Source of the DNA: Methanolacinia paynteri
Lineage (GTDB): Archaea; Halobacteriota; Methanomicrobia; Methanomicrobiales; Methanomicrobiaceae
NCBI RefSeq assembly: GCF_000784355.1
Contig: NZ_KN360940.1
Span: 22,960 to 61,110, forward strand
Direction of reading: 5' to 3'
DNA: 38,151 nucleotides
The notes beneath the pieces were generated by a model, which was not told the DNA's origin, ran no database searches, and saw only the letters and a list, made by a program, of their open reading frames with translations. Positions 8,753 to 27,668 of this stretch are shown piece by piece. The translations under genes were made by a program, and so were the position numbers. How positions within the stretch are numbered: the first letter of the stretch is position 1; each line of letters starts with the position of its first letter.

Positions 8753-11700
8753 GTGAACGAAAACACCGCCGAACTCCTGAATCTTTTGGAATCCGGAAAC
8801 AAACGAGAGCGAAGATCAGCGATCGATGGACTGAAAAAGATCGGGAAACCCGCATCCCTGCAGCTTTTAAATATCCTGAACAGCGAAAATCCTGATATCC
8901 GGGACGGTGCCGCAGAGATCCTCGGCTCATACAGCGAAGGGGATATCGATACTTTTCTGAAACTTCTTGCCTCGGGAAAGAAGAATGCAAGGGACGGTGC
9001 TGCAAGAACAATCGCATACATCATAGGCAACGGCGGGAAGATCACAACTCCTCTTTCAAAGATGATCAGGGACGGGACACCCGAAGCAAGGAAAGGCGCC
9101 GCCATATCCATCGGCTATATCCATAACCCGAAGGCCGATTTCGTCAACATGCTTCTGTATATGCTTAAGGACGATGACCGCGAAGTCAGGAAACAGGCGG
9201 CCGAATCGCTGAAAAAACTGAACTGGAATTCAGTCAATCCCGTCGAGATGGCCTTTTTCTATATGGCTGACGAAGACTGGGACAAACTGGGAAAGTCAGG
9301 ACCGTTCGCACTTGAAGCGGTAAAATTCGGGCTAAAAAATGCCGATTCCGAAGTGAGAATAAAACTCGCCGGCATTCTGGCAGGGACAAAAGGAAATGAA
9401 TCCAAAAAAATTCTCCTTTCAATACTGGCAGACCCCGATAAAAAAGTCAAACTGGCTGCGATCGATGCAGTAGCCGAGACCCGTGACCCGGAACTCATGA
9501 ATTATCTTGCCGGCGCCATGTACGACCGCGATTACGACGTTCAGGTCGAGACCTCATGGGCACTCCGCAAAGCGGGATGGAGACCTGCAAGCTACAATGA
9601 AAAAGTCAGGGCGCTTATCCTCCAGGGCGATTTAAGGGAGATCGAACTAATGGGCCGGACGGCACTCACTCCTCTCATCGAAAATCTCGGGGATACAGAT
9701 CCCAATATCAGAAAAAATGCCGTAAAGGTCCTGTATTCCATAGGAAAACCGGCATATGAAGCCCTCAGACAGGCAGAAAACAAATCCTCCCCTGAGATCA
9801 GGGAAGGAATACAGGAGGCTCTCGAATATTTCAGCACCAACGAAAAGGAATCCGCGGAAAAAACAGGAAGCGATTCGGCAACTGAGAGCGAGATCCGGGA
9901 ATATAATTCCAGGGATTACTGGCATCACGCTTTCATTGAGAACGGCTATAACCAGGAGATGGCTGAAAGGTTCTCTGCCTCTCTTTCCGGCGAAGACGAC
10001 ATCATAAGAATAACGGCTATCGAAAATCTCAAAGGGCACGGGAAGAGAGCAATCCCGATCATGATCCTTCTCCTGAACGACGAAAAGGAGAACGTGAAGA
10101 CTGTCGCCATCGAATCGCTCGGCGACCTGTACGCGAAAGATGCCATCGAATCGCTCGTAAAGACAATAGAAGACGAGCATCACGAGGTCAGAAGGGCCTC
10201 CGCCTATGCCCTCGGAAAAATCCGGGATAAAGGAACCCTGCCCGTTCTTGTCAGGCACTTTGCAGACCCCGAGGAGACCGTGCGCAACGAGTGCTCCGAA
10301 TCGGTCGCAAAGATGGGAAACATCGCCCTTCCCTTCATCGAAAACCTCGTATCGCACAACGACCCGGATGTCAGGATTGCATCCCTCAGGGCTCTCGGCG
10401 GGATCAGCGATCCGTCCGGAATTCCTTTCGGGACAAAGGCCCTGAACGATTCCGAGTACAACGTCAGGATTGAGGCAATGGACGCCCTTGTCCGCATCAG
10501 CGGCTTCATGTTCAACTTCCTGATGAACGAGATCCAGAGAGTCAGCATCCAGGGGACCAAGATGGAGAAGCTGGGAATGCTCAGTGTCCTGTCAAGACTC
10601 CAGGATTTAAAGATCGTCCCGGTCGTCAAGAGATTTCTCGCCGACGACGACGAGGAGGTCCGGAGAAATGCATCGGAGATCCTGGAAGTCTACAGGAAGA
10701 GAGAGATCAAAAAGGAGAAGGACAGGATTCGCGAGTACAGCAGGGAGACTGCCGACCTGCTGAAGAGGAAGCTGTCGCTAAAGGAGATCGACAGCCTTCT
10801 CGACCGCCTTATAGGTGCGGACGACTTCGCTACAATGGAGATCCTCGGGAAGAAGCTCTCGCAGAACGAGATCGAAGATCTGATTAAGGGACTCAAGGCA
10901 AAGAAAGGAGATACTTCAAAGGTCCTCGGGAAGAGGCTCTCGCAGGATGAGATCGACGAACTCATCCACCGTTCGGCCTATGTAAGCAATAAAAATACCA
11001 CGGAACTGCTCGGCAAAAAGCTCAACCAGGACGAGATCGACGATCTCATCAAAAGGGCATCCTCGGAGAAGGAAGAGAATGCCGCGAAGGACATCAAGAA
11101 ACAGCTCACCCAGAACGAGATCGACGACCTGATCAAAAAGGAGCTCGCACTCAAGAAGAAGGCGGCAATGGAGGTCTCAATGCTTATCGTCGGCCTGAAG
11201 AGCAGCGATCCTGCAGCCGAATCATCATCGACTGCCAAGATCATAAAGATCGGCGAGCCTGCCGTCGAACCCCTCCTCAGTTTCATGAACAACGCCGAAC
11301 CGGAATTCCAGGCAAAAACCGCTGAAATCCTTATCAAAATCGGAAAACCTGGGATCAGGGGGATGATCAGGACACTGAACTATGGCCGGACAGAAATGAG
11401 AGTCGTCATAGCAAGGACCATACTGAAGAGCAAAGACCCGGAGGCAGTGAATGCCGTATACGACAGGATCAAGAGCGAGAAGAATCCCGAGGTCAGGAAG
11501 GCCCTCATACTTGCATTTACAAAGGATTCGAAGGACAAAAGAATTCCCGACGCACTGCACTCCGCACTTGCCGATCCGGACCCCGGGGTAAAGACCCTTG
11601 CAGTCCGCCTTCTTGCAAAGATCAAAGACGAAAGGGCGATCGGCCCCCTGGTATCGGTCCTGAACTACTCCGAGGATACGCTCGCGGATCTTGCCTCCGA

Positions 11701-12859
11701 TTCTCTTGTCGGTTACGGAAAAGCTGCACAGCCGGCCCTTCTCAAAGAGCTGAAAGGAAACGGCAGCGACCAGTTTAGGGAGAGAATTGCCGCGACCATG
11801 GACAAGATGCAGTTCAAACCTGCCGACAGTAGGGATATCGCATGGTATTTTGCGGCAAAAGGAAGATGGAGCGAACTTGAGAAGTCAGGAGATTATGCAC
11901 TCGAACCCCTGTCACAGATTATCGGAAACCCCTACTCCAAAAAGAGGACGGATGCACTGAAAACCCTGATCGGGATCGGCGGAACGAAGGTCCTGCCGTC
12001 TCTTTCAAATGCGGTCTTCGACATAGATGAGGACATCTCCGGGACTGCAAGGCAGGGGATCCTTGACATGGGCAGGAGTGTGATCCCGGCGCTAACGGAG
12101 ATCGCCTCGAAGGAAAAAGATGCCGGGCGGCAGAGAGAGCTCGAATCGATAATCCGGGAGATCGACCAGAAAGATCTCATTAAAAAATCTATAGAGGCGG
12201 GAGACTGGAACGCGCTTGCCGGGGCAGGACCAATGGCGATCAAATATATCTCCGAAAGGACTAACTCCGCCGATCCGGAGACAAAGAGACAGATGATCTC
12301 TGTGATCTCGAGGATCGGGGGAGAAGAGGCAGTCTGCCCCCTCTCGGAGATGCTCTTTGACAATGACGAGAGGATCGCGGTTACTGCACGGCACGGTCTG
12401 CTGAATACCGGCGGAGAAGCGATACCGGAACTGGAAAAGATCTGCAGGCAGACCTCAAATCCTGCAAGACGAGAGGCTCTTAAATTCCTTATCAGGGAGA
12501 TATCGAAAGAGGAGGAGATTGCAACCCTCGTTAAGGAAAAGAGGTGGATAGAGCTCCAGTTAAAAGGTGAGGATGCAATCGACATGATCTCCCAGCTGCT
12601 CGAGGACCCGAACCCCGAAAACCGGATGGGAGCAACCAAAGTCTTTGCAGGCATCGATGACATCAGTGCCGTCCGGCCGCTTCTTCACTCACTCTTCGAC
12701 ACAGATCCGGAGATCGTGACGATTGCGAGCTCAGCACTTAAAAAAAGAGGAAAGACGATAATCCCGGTAATCTCAGTGGCAATTATTAAGGAGAAGAACC
12801 CTGCAAAAAAGAAGGCCCTTGCAGATCTAATCAGGGAGATGGAGTCGGGCGGCAGCTGA
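8753..12859 (+). CDS. Large HEAT-repeat protein with an internal LSQDEIDxLI repeat array
   Basis: A 1368-residue, charged, soluble protein. Residues about 1-660 and 800-1368 are many degenerate ~31-residue HEAT/PBS-lyase-like units (patterns such as RDGAAEILG, VRKQAAESLKKL, VRRASAYALGKI, VRNECSESVAKM), predicted to form two curved solenoids for protein binding. Between them is a coiled, charged block with five copies of a ten-residue motif starting at residues 674, 702, 729, 757 and 785: LSLKEIDSLL, LSQNEIEDLI, LSQDEIDELI, LNQDEIDDLI, LTQNEIDDLI. The spacing is 27-28 residues. The motif resembles the N-terminal CheY-binding peptide of bacterial FliM, though function by analogy is only inference. 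The start is GTG at 8753 with no ribosome site; a TATA-like GTATAATG at 8716-8723 suggests a very short leader. No enzymatic motif is seen. Confidence 0.88.
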   Translation: MNENTAELLNLLESGNKRERRSAIDGLKKIGKPASLQLLNILNSENPDIRDGAAEILGSYSEGDIDTFLKLLASGKKNARDGAARTIAYIIGNGGKITTPLSKMIRDGTPEARKGAAISIGYIHNPKADFVNMLLYMLKDDDREVRKQAAESLKKLNWNSVNPVEMAFFYMADEDWDKLGKSGPFALEAVKFGLKNADSEVRIKLAGILAGTKGNESKKILLSILADPDKKVKLAAIDAVAETRDPELMNYLAGAMYDRDYDVQVETSWALRKAGWRPASYNEKVRALILQGDLREIELMGRTALTPLIENLGDTDPNIRKNAVKVLYSIGKPAYEALRQAENKSSPEIREGIQEALEYFSTNEKESAEKTGSDSATESEIREYNSRDYWHHAFIENGYNQEMAERFSASLSGEDDIIRITAIENLKGHGKRAIPIMILLLNDEKENVKTVAIESLGDLYAKDAIESLVKTIEDEHHEVRRASAYALGKIRDKGTLPVLVRHFADPEETVRNECSESVAKMGNIALPFIENLVSHNDPDVRIASLRALGGISDPSGIPFGTKALNDSEYNVRIEAMDALVRISGFMFNFLMNEIQRVSIQGTKMEKLGMLSVLSRLQDLKIVPVVKRFLADDDEEVRRNASEILEVYRKREIKKEKDRIREYSRETADLLKRKLSLKEIDSLLDRLIGADDFATMEILGKKLSQNEIEDLIKGLKAKKGDTSKVLGKRLSQDEIDELIHRSAYVSNKNTTELLGKKLNQDEIDDLIKRASSEKEENAAKDIKKQLTQNEIDDLIKKELALKKKAAMEVSMLIVGLKSSDPAAESSSTAKIIKIGEPAVEPLLSFMNNAEPEFQAKTAEILIKIGKPGIRGMIRTLNYGRTEMRVVIARTILKSKDPEAVNAVYDRIKSEKNPEVRKALILAFTKDSKDKRIPDALHSALADPDPGVKTLAVRLLAKIKDERAIGPLVSVLNYSEDTLADLASDSLVGYGKAAQPALLKELKGNGSDQFRERIAATMDKMQFKPADSRDIAWYFAAKGRWSELEKSGDYALEPLSQIIGNPYSKKRTDALKTLIGIGGTKVLPSLSNAVFDIDEDISGTARQGILDMGRSVIPALTEIASKEKDAGRQRELESIIREIDQKDLIKKSIEAGDWNALAGAGPMAIKYISERTNSADPETKRQMISVISRIGGEEAVCPLSEMLFDNDERIAVTARHGLLNTGGEAIPELEKICRQTSNPARREALKFLIREISKEEEIATLVKEKRWIELQLKGEDAIDMISQLLEDPNPENRMGATKVFAGIDDISAVRPLLHSLFDTDPEIVTIASSALKKRGKTIIPVISVAIIKEKNPAKKKALADLIREMESGGS

Positions 12860-22122: not shown

Positions 22123-23898
22123 ATGGGCAGATTATGGGCGGCCGTTTTTCTTCTGTTAATAGTAGTAACTATTATTCCCGGCCACGTTTCATGCCTGGAA
22201 GAAAGCGATCTGGAGCAGATTCTTTATATCAACTCATATGATTTCGATTTTTCATGGAGTAAACTCATGGCGGACGGAGTCCATGACGGTATCATTTCCG
22301 GTTTGAACGAGAGCGAAAAACCCGGGGTGTATGTTCTTACCGAGTTTATGGACTCAAAATTCATCTCTGACGATATTCATTTCAGGAATCTCTACAACCT
22401 TTACTCATACAAATTAAAAGGCAACAAACCCGGTGTAATTATCGTATCGGATGACAATGCACTCAGGTTTATGAGAGAATACGGAGATGAGATGTTTCCG
22501 GGAGTGCCGGTAGTTTTTACAGGCATAAACGACTATGATTGGATTCTCGATGATCTGCCTGCCAATTATACCGGAATAATCGAAAAAACTCCGATCGAAG
22601 AGAATATAGATCTGGTTCTCAGGCTGCACCCGGATTTGAATACAATATACTTTGTGACCGACGATACATTCACAGGGAAAACCGTCCGCAGACAGACCGA
22701 AAATATCACGAAAAAATATGAAGACAGGATTGAGGTCAGGTATTCGGGCCAGGGGCTGAGTACAGGGGAAATGCTCCGTGAAGTGCAGGAACTCCCCGAC
22801 AATTCGGCAGTAATCTTCTTCACTTACAGCATCCTGAACGAAAACGGGGATAAGATGTACCCCGACCGCTACATCATCACTCTCATGAATCAGAATCGAA
22901 TCCCGGTATATACTGTAATGGACCAGTACAATAAACTGGGAGTTTCCGGAGGTTACCAGATATCCGCATATGAACTCGGGAAAGCGGCATCCGAAAAGGC
23001 CATGAAAATAATCCATGGAACCGATCCGAATGACATCCCGGTTGAAACAGAAACACCCTCCAAAATTGAACTTAATTACGACGATATTAAAAAATACGAT
23101 ATAAAAGACGACAATATCCCGTCGGAAACCGAATTCTTCAACAGACCTTCATACATGGTTGCCATCCCGAAAAATTTCGCAACCGCGATAGTAATCCTGA
23201 TATTGTCTCTTGCAGCCATCCTGCTCATCTCTCTTGTCTACAATAATAAGCTAAAAAAGACCGAGATCGAACTTAAAGATTCGCTCGACGAGAAAAATAT
23301 CCTTCTAAGAGAGATCCACCACAGGGTCAAGAACAATCTGGCCGTGATAACAAGTCTCGTAGAAATGCAGTCCATGAATTCGATGGAGACCGAAACGAAA
23401 CAAAAACTCAGGGATATGGGCAACAGGATAATATCGATGTCTATTATCTATGACAACCTGTACCAGTCGGGAAATCTTTCAAAGATCAATATCAGGACCG
23501 TTTTCATGACCCTCGGAGAGAAGCTTATCCAGGACTATAGTATGGGGATCGATATTCATTTTGAGGTAACCGGTGAGGACTGCCTGATCAGCCCCGACAA
23601 AGCGGTCCCTCTCAGCCTGGTAATTAACGAAATAATAGGAAATTCATTGAGATTTGCATTTGCAGGAAAAAAATCGGGCGAAATCCGGATCAACTATACC
23701 TGTAAAGACGAAATCCTCAACATAAGAATCTCTGATAACGGCATCGGAATCGACCGGCCGTATATCGAAGGCGAAACGGAATCCATCGGTCTCGATCTCA
23801 TCAGGAACATCGTATCACTTCAGCTCAACGGAACAGCAGAGATCCGCAGCGACGGCGGTACGATCTGGATCATCAGCTTTCCTACAGACAACGATTAA
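22123..23898 (+). CDS. Membrane sensor histidine kinase with ABC-type binding-protein sensor domain
   Basis: A 591-residue protein. Residues 1-24 are a signal peptide or anchor ([17 protein letters not shown]). Residues about 30-330 resemble the periplasmic binding-protein fold of the ABC_sub_bind family ([46 protein letters not shown]), exposed outside the membrane. A membrane segment lies at about 349-370. The kinase is of the HisKA_2 type: [15 protein letters not shown], His399/His400, followed by a GHKL ATPase domain ([23 protein letters not shown]). It should sense a small extracellular ligand and phosphorylate an unlinked response regulator. Its stop overlaps the convergent glycosylase gene by three bases. 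Confidence 0.9.
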
Positions 23899-24879: not shown

Positions 24880-27390
24880 TCAGTTGCTCACAACCTTGAA
24901 ATGCTCCCCGGGAACGGTTATTTCAAAACGTGCCCCGACACCTTCTTCTCCGGTCTCGCAGATGGAGATCCCCGTTATCGAAAGGATCTCCCTCGATAAG
25001 AAAAGTCCGAAACCGGTAGTTTTTCCAAACCCTTTTTCAAATATTCTTTCCTTATCTGAGTCCGGGATACCTGTCCCGTTGTCCTCCCACAATATCTTCA
25101 GCAGATCGCCGGATATTTCGCAGCCGACCCGGACTTCGGTTGCCTCGCCATGACGGATCGTGTTGTCCATCAGGTTTAAAAACACCTTCTCGAGCATAGG
25201 ATCCGCGTTCACCTCGATATTCCTGCAATCGTTATAAAGAACCACTTTCTCGTTTCCGGAATCGCTGATCAATTCCCGGATATCTATCCATACGGGTTTG
25301 TTGACTCCGAGGTTCTCGTATTCCCGTGTAAATTCTATATGACGCTGGATAGCCGAAGAGGCCTTTTTTATATAATTGAGGCAGTCCGCTCCCGGCTGAT
25401 CCAGGATGTGATCTTCTGCAATTTCAAGGAAACCCTTAATCACCATCAGCTGGTTCAGGATGTCGTGACGTGTGATATCGGAGAGAATATTGAGTTTCCT
25501 GTTCGCAAATCTCACTGCCTCTTCTGCAGTTTTTCTTTCTGTAATATCCTCAACAACTGCCAGGCAGAATGGCTTTCCTCCCATCAGGATATATCTCGAT
25601 GTGAAACTGCAGAGGTTTATCTCCCCGCTTTTTTTGCGGCAATTTATCTCGTAATTATCGATGCTGCCTTTTTCCCTCATCGCAGCAAGCAATAATTTAT
25701 ACTGATTGTTATCCTGGAAGATCCCAAGCTCCTCGGGTGTTTTTCCGATGGTCTCTTCCACGGAATAGCCGGTTTGGCTTACGAACTTTTCATTGACATC
25801 CGTAAATTTCTGGTCGGTCCCTGATATGAGAGTCAATACAAAGGGGCTGTTCATAAAAACAGTAGTGAACTTATTCTCCGATTCCTTCAGCTGCTCTTCA
25901 ATCTCCTTTTGTCCTGTAACGTCCCAGATGAAAACCAGCATGGCTTCTGAATCGTTAAAATGGATCTTCTTTCCTATGCACTCGATCCAGATCTCCCTTC
26001 CCGCTTTATTTATGATCTTATAGCCGACAGGGTACCGGTCTATGCCCTGTAAAACACAACCCAGATCCTTTTCAAGTCCGGCGCGGGATTCGGGTGCGAT
26101 ATAATCCATAATATTTGCTCTCCCCGCCAGGGATTTGGAATCTTTTACATCCAGAATCCGGCTGGTTTCCATATTGGCAAAGAGGATTTTGCCTGAGAAA
26201 TCCACTACCAGGATGCCGTCCAGGGAAAGATCGACAAGTGTTTTGAACTTCGTTTCGCTTTCGCGAAGCTCCTTTTCACTCTTTACCAGTTCGTCGTAAT
26301 TCTGCCTGAGCTCTTCTTCAGAAGCGGCAAGCTGTTCATAGGCAGCATTGAGTTCTTCGGTCTTTTGGAGAAGTTCCTTCTTAGTCCTTTCATACTCGGC
26401 AATGGACCTGGCCTGCCGGAGATTATGATAGGTGGATTTTGAAAGCTGATTCGCCATCGCGAACAATGCCTTTGAGACGTTCTCAAATCTCTCCGTCGAC
26501 ATTGATGGTACTTCATAATATGCATCGAGGAAGACATTTTCGTCAGCACCGATCTTCCGGGCATATTCGAGCATCTTCTCTTCGGTCTGGGCTTCGTTTC
26601 GGACCTGGCCGGCGAGCCAGTTTGCAATGTGCCTGCCATTGACGATAATACTCGCACCGGCATCCCAGAGGCCGCCGCTTAAGCACTTCTGCACCGTCGG
26701 ACCGTCAGGATTAGGTTTCCCGATGGTCGCATTGGAGATAAAACAATTTTTGCAGCCGTACTCGCTTTTCCTGATAACATCCCTGCACAGCCGGGTGAAA
26801 TTGCTGGGTTTAGTGATGGGTGTTCCGTCGGGACGGGTAATTATCGATGCGACGCCGGCACCTGTTGAGAAATCGTCCTGGATCCGCTGGATTTCATCGA
26901 TATCGAACAGATCCTCGAACTCTATGTTGCCTTCCGCCGGCGGCTGAGTCAGCATTATCACGCGTTTTTCAAGTGCCTCCTCCGCTCTTTTGCTTTTTAC
27001 TGCGCTTTTTATCTTATGCGCCAGTTCGGCATACTGTGATTTGGGATCTCCGCCTTTCTGGAGATAAAAGTCCGCGCCCTCGTTTAACGCCTCTATTACA
27101 ACCTCTTCCCTGCTTTTTCCAGTAAAAATAATAAAAGGAATTCTGTTGCCGGCACTCCGGAGAGATTTCAGCAGTCCGATACCGTCCATGCCGGACATCT
27201 GGTAATCGGAGACTACTGCATCAAAGGGTTTTTCCGACAAAAGCTTAAGGGCATCTTTCGCATTTCCTGCTGTTGTTACTGAAAAACCGCCTGTTTTCTC
27301 AAGGAATAATTTGCTCATATTAAGAAGAACCGGCTCGTCATCGACATAAAGAAGTGATATGCCGGAATCCTCCTGCTCCCCGTATGACAT
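24880..27390 (-). CDS. Cytoplasmic hybrid sensor kinase: REC-PocR-PAS-PAS-histidine kinase
   Basis: From the ATG at 27390 it has 836 residues. Residues 12-125 are a response-regulator receiver with the acidic pair Asp17/18, phospho-acceptor Asp62 (VVSDYQMSGMDG), Thr90 and Lys112. Residues about 155-320 are a PocR sensory domain with its Cys-rich pattern (YGCKNCFIS and QKCLSGGLWDAG). A coiled coil, two PAS domains, a phospho-acceptor region (SDITRHDILNQLMVIKGF) and a GHKL ATPase (NLMDNTIRHGE, WEDNGTGI, TTGFGLFLSREI) follow. There are no membrane segments. PocR relatives sense small hydrocarbon derivatives such as propanediol; the ligand here is unknown. The frame extends to a TTG at 27480, but the receiver begins right after the ATG, so I prefer that. 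Confidence 0.9.
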   Translation of the reverse strand: MSYGEQEDSGISLLYVDDEPVLLNMSKLFLEKTGGFSVTTAGNAKDALKLLSEKPFDAVVSDYQMSGMDGIGLLKSLRSAGNRIPFIIFTGKSREEVVIEALNEGADFYLQKGGDPKSQYAELAHKIKSAVKSKRAEEALEKRVIMLTQPPAEGNIEFEDLFDIDEIQRIQDDFSTGAGVASIITRPDGTPITKPSNFTRLCRDVIRKSEYGCKNCFISNATIGKPNPDGPTVQKCLSGGLWDAGASIIVNGRHIANWLAGQVRNEAQTEEKMLEYARKIGADENVFLDAYYEVPSMSTERFENVSKALFAMANQLSKSTYHNLRQARSIAEYERTKKELLQKTEELNAAYEQLAASEEELRQNYDELVKSEKELRESETKFKTLVDLSLDGILVVDFSGKILFANMETSRILDVKDSKSLAGRANIMDYIAPESRAGLEKDLGCVLQGIDRYPVGYKIINKAGREIWIECIGKKIHFNDSEAMLVFIWDVTGQKEIEEQLKESENKFTTVFMNSPFVLTLISGTDQKFTDVNEKFVSQTGYSVEETIGKTPEELGIFQDNNQYKLLLAAMREKGSIDNYEINCRKKSGEINLCSFTSRYILMGGKPFCLAVVEDITERKTAEEAVRFANRKLNILSDITRHDILNQLMVIKGFLEIAEDHILDQPGADCLNYIKKASSAIQRHIEFTREYENLGVNKPVWIDIRELISDSGNEKVVLYNDCRNIEVNADPMLEKVFLNLMDNTIRHGEATEVRVGCEISGDLLKILWEDNGTGIPDSDKERIFEKGFGKTTGFGLFLSREILSITGISICETGEEGVGARFEITVPGEHFKVVSN

Positions 27391-27668
27391 AATTATCGTT
27401 CCATCATTCTTAGACAGTAAATGATAATACTCCAGATCATGATAAACTTTAAGGAATTGATGTGGCAATTTTTCGAGCAAAATGCCAGTTTATTTCAATA
27501 TTTGTACAAATTTTGAATAATATTTATTTTTATAATATGAAAAATTGTGTTTTTTCACTGTTTCATAACTATTAATTCTTTATTGCTCCACGCCCGGGGA
27601 TGTCGTTACAATATTGGCCCACGGATACGAAGATAAAAAAAATATACGGATAATTTTTCTTCATCATT

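Follow-up and report, generated by a model that had tools for sequence, protein, structure and literature searches.

A five-unit repeat array flanked by HEAT solenoids in a Methanolacinia paynteri protein: FliM-like docking motif or mainly a helix start?

The window analyzed here, a stretch of 38,151 nucleotides from Methanolacinia paynteri, contains a 4.1 kb gene for a HEAT-repeat protein in which a decapeptide resembling the CheY-binding N-terminal peptide of bacterial FliM recurs five times. An earlier note took this array for a possible multivalent docking site for a receiver-like partner, and the question raised by the locus is whether the resemblance points to such a partner or mainly to a common way of starting a helix. 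Literature searches found no account of this protein.

Architecture of the HEAT-repeat protein and its array

The open reading frame (8753-12859, forward strand, GTG start) encodes 1368 amino acids and matches PF13646 (HEAT_2) in 12 tandem stretches with an E value of 3e-99 and a score of 325.9 bits where the cut-off is 27.7, which places the protein among the HEAT-repeat scaffolds. With the HEAT/PBS-lyase HEAT-like alpha-solenoids (PF13646, PF02985, PF03130), it shares three long HEAT blocks with many significant Pfam matches: block 1 (approximately residues 1-385, 8753-9907) and block 2 (approximately residues 405-655, 9965-10717, including the invariant GTKMEKLGMLSVLS), both delimited by matches to relatives, and block 3 with a C-terminal HEAT extension (approximately residues 808-1368, 11174-12856), delimited by Pfam and relatives, all on the forward strand. 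The array lies between blocks 2 and 3, with Pfam HEAT matches on both sides, as the earlier note had it. The five 28-residue units themselves, in contrast, fit no HEAT model (searched against Pfam at E values up to 10, the array hit no HEAT family) and are lacking in close paralogues.

The complete array comprises residues 664-802 (10742-11158, forward strand), whereas the range first reported, 10769-11134, corresponds to residues 673-794 only. Its units are repeat 1 (residues 664-691, 10742-10825; LSLKEIDSLL at residue 674), repeat 2 (residues 692-718, 27 amino acids, 10826-10906; LSQNEIEDLI at 702), repeat 3 (residues 719-746, 10907-10990; LSQDEIDELI at 729), repeat 4 (residues 747-774, 10991-11074; LNQDEIDDLI at 757) and repeat 5 (residues 775-802, 11075-11158; LTQNEIDDLI at 785). 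The positions of the five motifs and the period of 27-28 residues are those reported in the earlier note: the spacing is 28, 27, 28 and 28 residues, and the mean BLOSUM62 self-similarity at lag 28 reaches 1.01, far beyond chance, no value above 0.31 having arisen when the sequence was shuffled 2000 times (lags 20-39). Of the five related copies, only the third fits exactly the formula LSQDEIDxLI proposed for all of them, Gln being missing from the first, and the real unit is 28 residues long, consisting of helix A (TxxLLGKK) followed by L-[ST]-Q-x-E-I-D-x-L-I, which opens helix B. Because a tandem-repeat program found no DNA-level tandem repeat matching the array, the copies being too diverged in DNA, the repeats must be old.

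Alignment of 40 units (five copies in each of eight orthologues) yields the consensus [KRE]-[DKE]-T-A-[KE]-L-L-[GK]-K-K-L-[ST]-Q-[DN]-E-I-D-[ED]-L-[IL]-[KR]-[RK], followed by a variable tail. Within the motif, the most conserved residues are Leu at position 0 and Glu at +4 (39/40 units each), Ile at +5 (38/40), Asp at +6 (36/40) and Gln at +2 (32/40). Helix A is conserved as well, with Leu or Ile at -4 in all 40 units and the hydrophobic residues at -5/-4, together with Leu at 0, kept in nearly all of them; such conservation is more than a bare docking peptide would need.

Conservation and single gain of the array

The homologue search and copy count proposed in the earlier note came out in favor of the motif, which is conserved in exactly five units in all eight orthologues, from three genera of one Methanomicrobiales family. 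For each of the 40 units, the nearest relative in other species is the same-numbered unit. Across the eight orthologues, repeats 3-5 are conserved at 74-83% versus 28-61% for the HEAT blocks; conservation along the whole protein peaks in repeat 5, which contains AKDIKKQLTQNEID, invariant in 8/8.

The array is present in 8 of the 232 genomes of the order, in the three genera of this one family, and is absent from the other genomes among 393 sampled across the phylum. When about 85,000 species were scanned with the array, only two Methanomicrobiaceae-labelled MAGs matched, apparently G002 and G019, and no viral contig did; a scan of genome contigs with the whole protein gave no match. In the tree, the array-bearing proteins fall into one clade (support 100/100), and a single change of state accounts for them. 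Paralogues of the same and other genomes have the HEAT blocks but a short, variable linker in place of the array, and these paralogues show that the array was inserted once, between HEAT blocks, in a single gain. One such paralogue in the same genome (G000:C35, a frame of about 1035-1062 amino acids) shares the HEAT blocks, with 38% identity over residues 13-644, but has a short unconserved linker at the array site, and nothing in it aligned with the C-terminal HEAT extension. The array, the sequence, periodicity, conservation, single gain and restricted distribution of which are direct observations, is a clear example of how a short helical unit was multiplied and then frozen, at a fixed copy number, in a HEAT scaffold.

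The orthologue in G014 (L112:7216-11360) is frameshifted just past repeat 5, giving frames of 835 and 581 amino acids, and may be a pseudogene or the result of a sequencing error.

Predicted structure and the helix-turn-helix reading

An AlphaFold2 model of residues 400-880, built with the eight orthologues (mean pLDDT 81.5, about 80 over the array; pTM 0.47), places helices at 676-688, 692-699, 704-713, 721-728, 731-741, 747-756 and 759-768 and a long helix at 772-815, with long predicted helices bracketing the array. The array is predicted as a run of short helices and not as the plain coiled coil that, according to the earlier note, would have counted against its reading. Ser675, Ser703, Ser730 and Asn758 directly precede helix B of repeats 1-4; in repeat 5, by contrast, the long predicted helix 772-815 includes Thr786. 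The model of the array alone, of low confidence (pLDDT 57), has the same helix starts (676, 704, 731 and 759), with the helix from 731 continuing to 756. A fold search with the 400-880 model retrieved HEAT/Arm solenoids, including alphaRep, PP2A PR65 and importin, and one with the poor array-alone model retrieved no match.

The pattern L-[ST]-x-x-E-I is a textbook capping box with a hydrophobic staple. The models place the motif Ser and Asn residues of repeats 1-4 as N-caps at predicted helix boundaries, and the co-conservation of helix A suggests that the hydrophobic face of the motif is buried.

We consider it probable that the array is a lineage-specific module of five helix-turn-helix (helical-hairpin) units in the HEAT linker, its decapeptide being mainly a helix-start motif, and that this module docks a partner, sets geometry, or both. 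Under this scenario, each of the five 28-residue helix-turn-helix units, which entered the HEAT linker in one insertion, would begin with helix A, a short segment (T-x-x-L-L-[GK]-[KR]-[KQR]) ending in L-[STN]; the Ser, Thr or Asn at this end would cap helix B (Q-x-E-I-D-x-L-[IL]), so that the decapeptide would be mainly a helix-start signature combining a capping box (S/T...E) with a hydrophobic staple (L...I). Helix A and neighboring units are most likely what the Ile, Leu and Leu/Ile side chains of the motif pack against. The module probably fixes how the HEAT blocks are arranged relative to each other, and it probably offers a specific partner a conserved, charged face that is most pronounced on repeat 5. 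The low confidence of the array-alone model, the pTM of the model in HEAT context and the empty fold search count against this reading, and repeat 5 departs from the capped-helix pattern, its motif falling within one long predicted helix. In addition, Gln at +2 and Asp at +6, both present in the FliM motif, are conserved beyond what capping alone would explain. The gene neighborhoods examined revealed no partner or gene linkage that points to the function of the array.

It is unlikely that the array is a passive spacer or hinge that sets only the distance or angle of HEAT blocks 2 and 3 and has no partner of its own. Its location between two solenoids, the long predicted helices at either side and the short variable linkers at the same position in paralogues are all consistent with such a role, but the array, including the charged invariant segment of repeat 5, is more conserved than the HEAT blocks that it joins, which is unusual for a spacer.

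The FliM-like motif, receivers and gene context

The docking proposal, in which each EIDxLI helix would bind the alpha4-alpha5 groove of CheY or another receiver and the scaffold would gather up to five receivers, appears quite improbable to us. The likeness to the FliM peptide itself is there, if weak: 7 of the 10 residues of LSQDEIDELI match the E. coli FliM motif, and the best NCBIfam hits of the array include the N-termini of FliM and FliY (E 6e-5 to 0.15), with E 0.0024 for FliM (model positions 2-30) and 0.0079 for FliY (3-42) in the window and 6e-5 for FliY in an orthologue. Other NCBIfam hits at E up to 0.01 are the SCO1664 family and a Plasmodium domain. The array shares with the FliM/FliY EIDAL(L) peptide the sequence L-S-Q-x-E-I-D-x-L-[IL] and the start of a helix just after Ser; it differs in being internal (motifs at residues 674-794 of 1368, none at the protein N-terminus), in having five copies, each preceded by a conserved hydrophobic helix, in lacking the FliM/FliY core domain and in its host, an archaeon with CheF. 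A search of the array region matched only about the N-terminal 30 positions of the FliM model and scored 17.1 bits, the cut-off being 219.6. FliM-N is a free N-terminal peptide without helix A.

Matches to unrelated proteins are equally weak. No Pfam family exceeds its cut-off for the array, and unrelated domains and EF-hands lead the list of hits. When solved structures were searched with the profile, most matches were to calmodulin, around its residues 108-136 (E about 0.13-0.25), in a structure set that lacks FliM peptides under 20 residues. This part of calmodulin is a helix-turn-helix with a Thr cap, and the EF-hand linker (LGEKLTDEEVDEMIREA) resembles the unit in that a helix leads into L-[ST], after which E-[IV]-D-x-[LM]-I lies in a capped helix; the array differs in its 28-residue period and in having no DxDxDG calcium loops, and an E value of about 0.2 is not evidence of homology. 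EF-hand identity was rejected on the missing loop and the sub-threshold Pfam hits; SHOCT and SAP-like repeats, also considered, have no model among the Pfam hits of the array.

Outside the array, the degenerate motif pattern in DNA is about three times more frequent than its reversed control in 40 relatives, as counted among the matches listed, and the in-frame copies in these 40 genomes, none of which adjoins the array, are mostly in what we take, without a family search, to be integrases, phosphoesterases and a uroporphyrinogen-methyltransferase-like family. The same helix-start pattern in unrelated proteins argues against docking. The FliM likeness is thus real, but it is short and of a kind that arises at helix starts. 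Unless the partner proves to be a receiver, a caution follows: LSQxEIDxLL alone would be a common helix start and weak evidence of CheY binding.

The distribution of receivers does not support the proposed docking site either. Within the family, receivers are found in 28/28 genomes, CheF in 27/28 and the array in 8/28; nearly all array-less relatives have CheY and CheF, and several have 20 or more receivers. In one genus (g8), three array-bearing genomes encode 25-38 receivers versus 5 in three array-less ones, a contrast in favor of docking that is confounded by the smaller size and lower completeness of the array-less genomes. The CheY of the genome closely matches T. maritima CheY (E 1.8e-42), but the CheY chain in 6er7, which we take to be archaeal (Pyrococcus), is even closer (E 9e-50), so that the surface of this CheY neither proves nor excludes FliM-type binding. 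A solved structure shows T. maritima CheY in complex with FliM-N (cited in PMC9126983), and archaea use CheF, to which CheY-P binds near the phosphorylation site, a surface different from the alpha4-alpha5 groove bound by FliM-N (PMC9126983).

That the five-copy FliM-like array evolved independently of the flagellar switch and gathers response-regulator receivers outside the CheF pathway is a still more doubtful conjecture; if true, it would make the protein an archaeal receiver hub outside that pathway, a signaling hub not known before. Docking of a MinD/FlhG-type ATPase that would position a cellular structure is highly improbable: FlhG also binds the FliM N-terminal peptide in polar flagellates (PMC12826062), so that receptors of more than one class are known for it, but no linkage to such an ATPase was seen, and the burial argument for the motif face applies equally here.

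The neighbors of the array gene are an auxin-efflux-type transporter and a hydrolase in genus g1, a tRNA synthetase in g6, and an anaerobic ribonucleotide reductase and glutaredoxin in g8; no conserved functional link across genera was found in the neighborhoods of the orthologues, and no chemotaxis gene was recognized beside those examined. In the window, two histidine kinases are encoded 10-15 kb from the array gene, namely a receiver-PocR-PAS-histidine kinase hybrid (24880-27480, reverse strand) and a histidine kinase with an ABC substrate-binding-like domain (22123-23898, forward strand), neither of which was seen near orthologues within the stretches compared. The window further encodes a Schlafen AlbA_2/RecG C-terminal-like regulator (PF04326, PF13749; 4559-6058, reverse strand), without a counterpart at the same place in G001 or G002, and a BRO-N protein (PF02498; 18964-19839, forward strand), a domain typical of viruses and mobile elements. 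Finally, in two genera an array-less HEAT paralogue (L114:5682-7366 and L115:10703-12423) has as neighbors a gene for a bactofilin (PF04519) and a second conserved gene, which suggests a cytoskeletal link for this paralogue.
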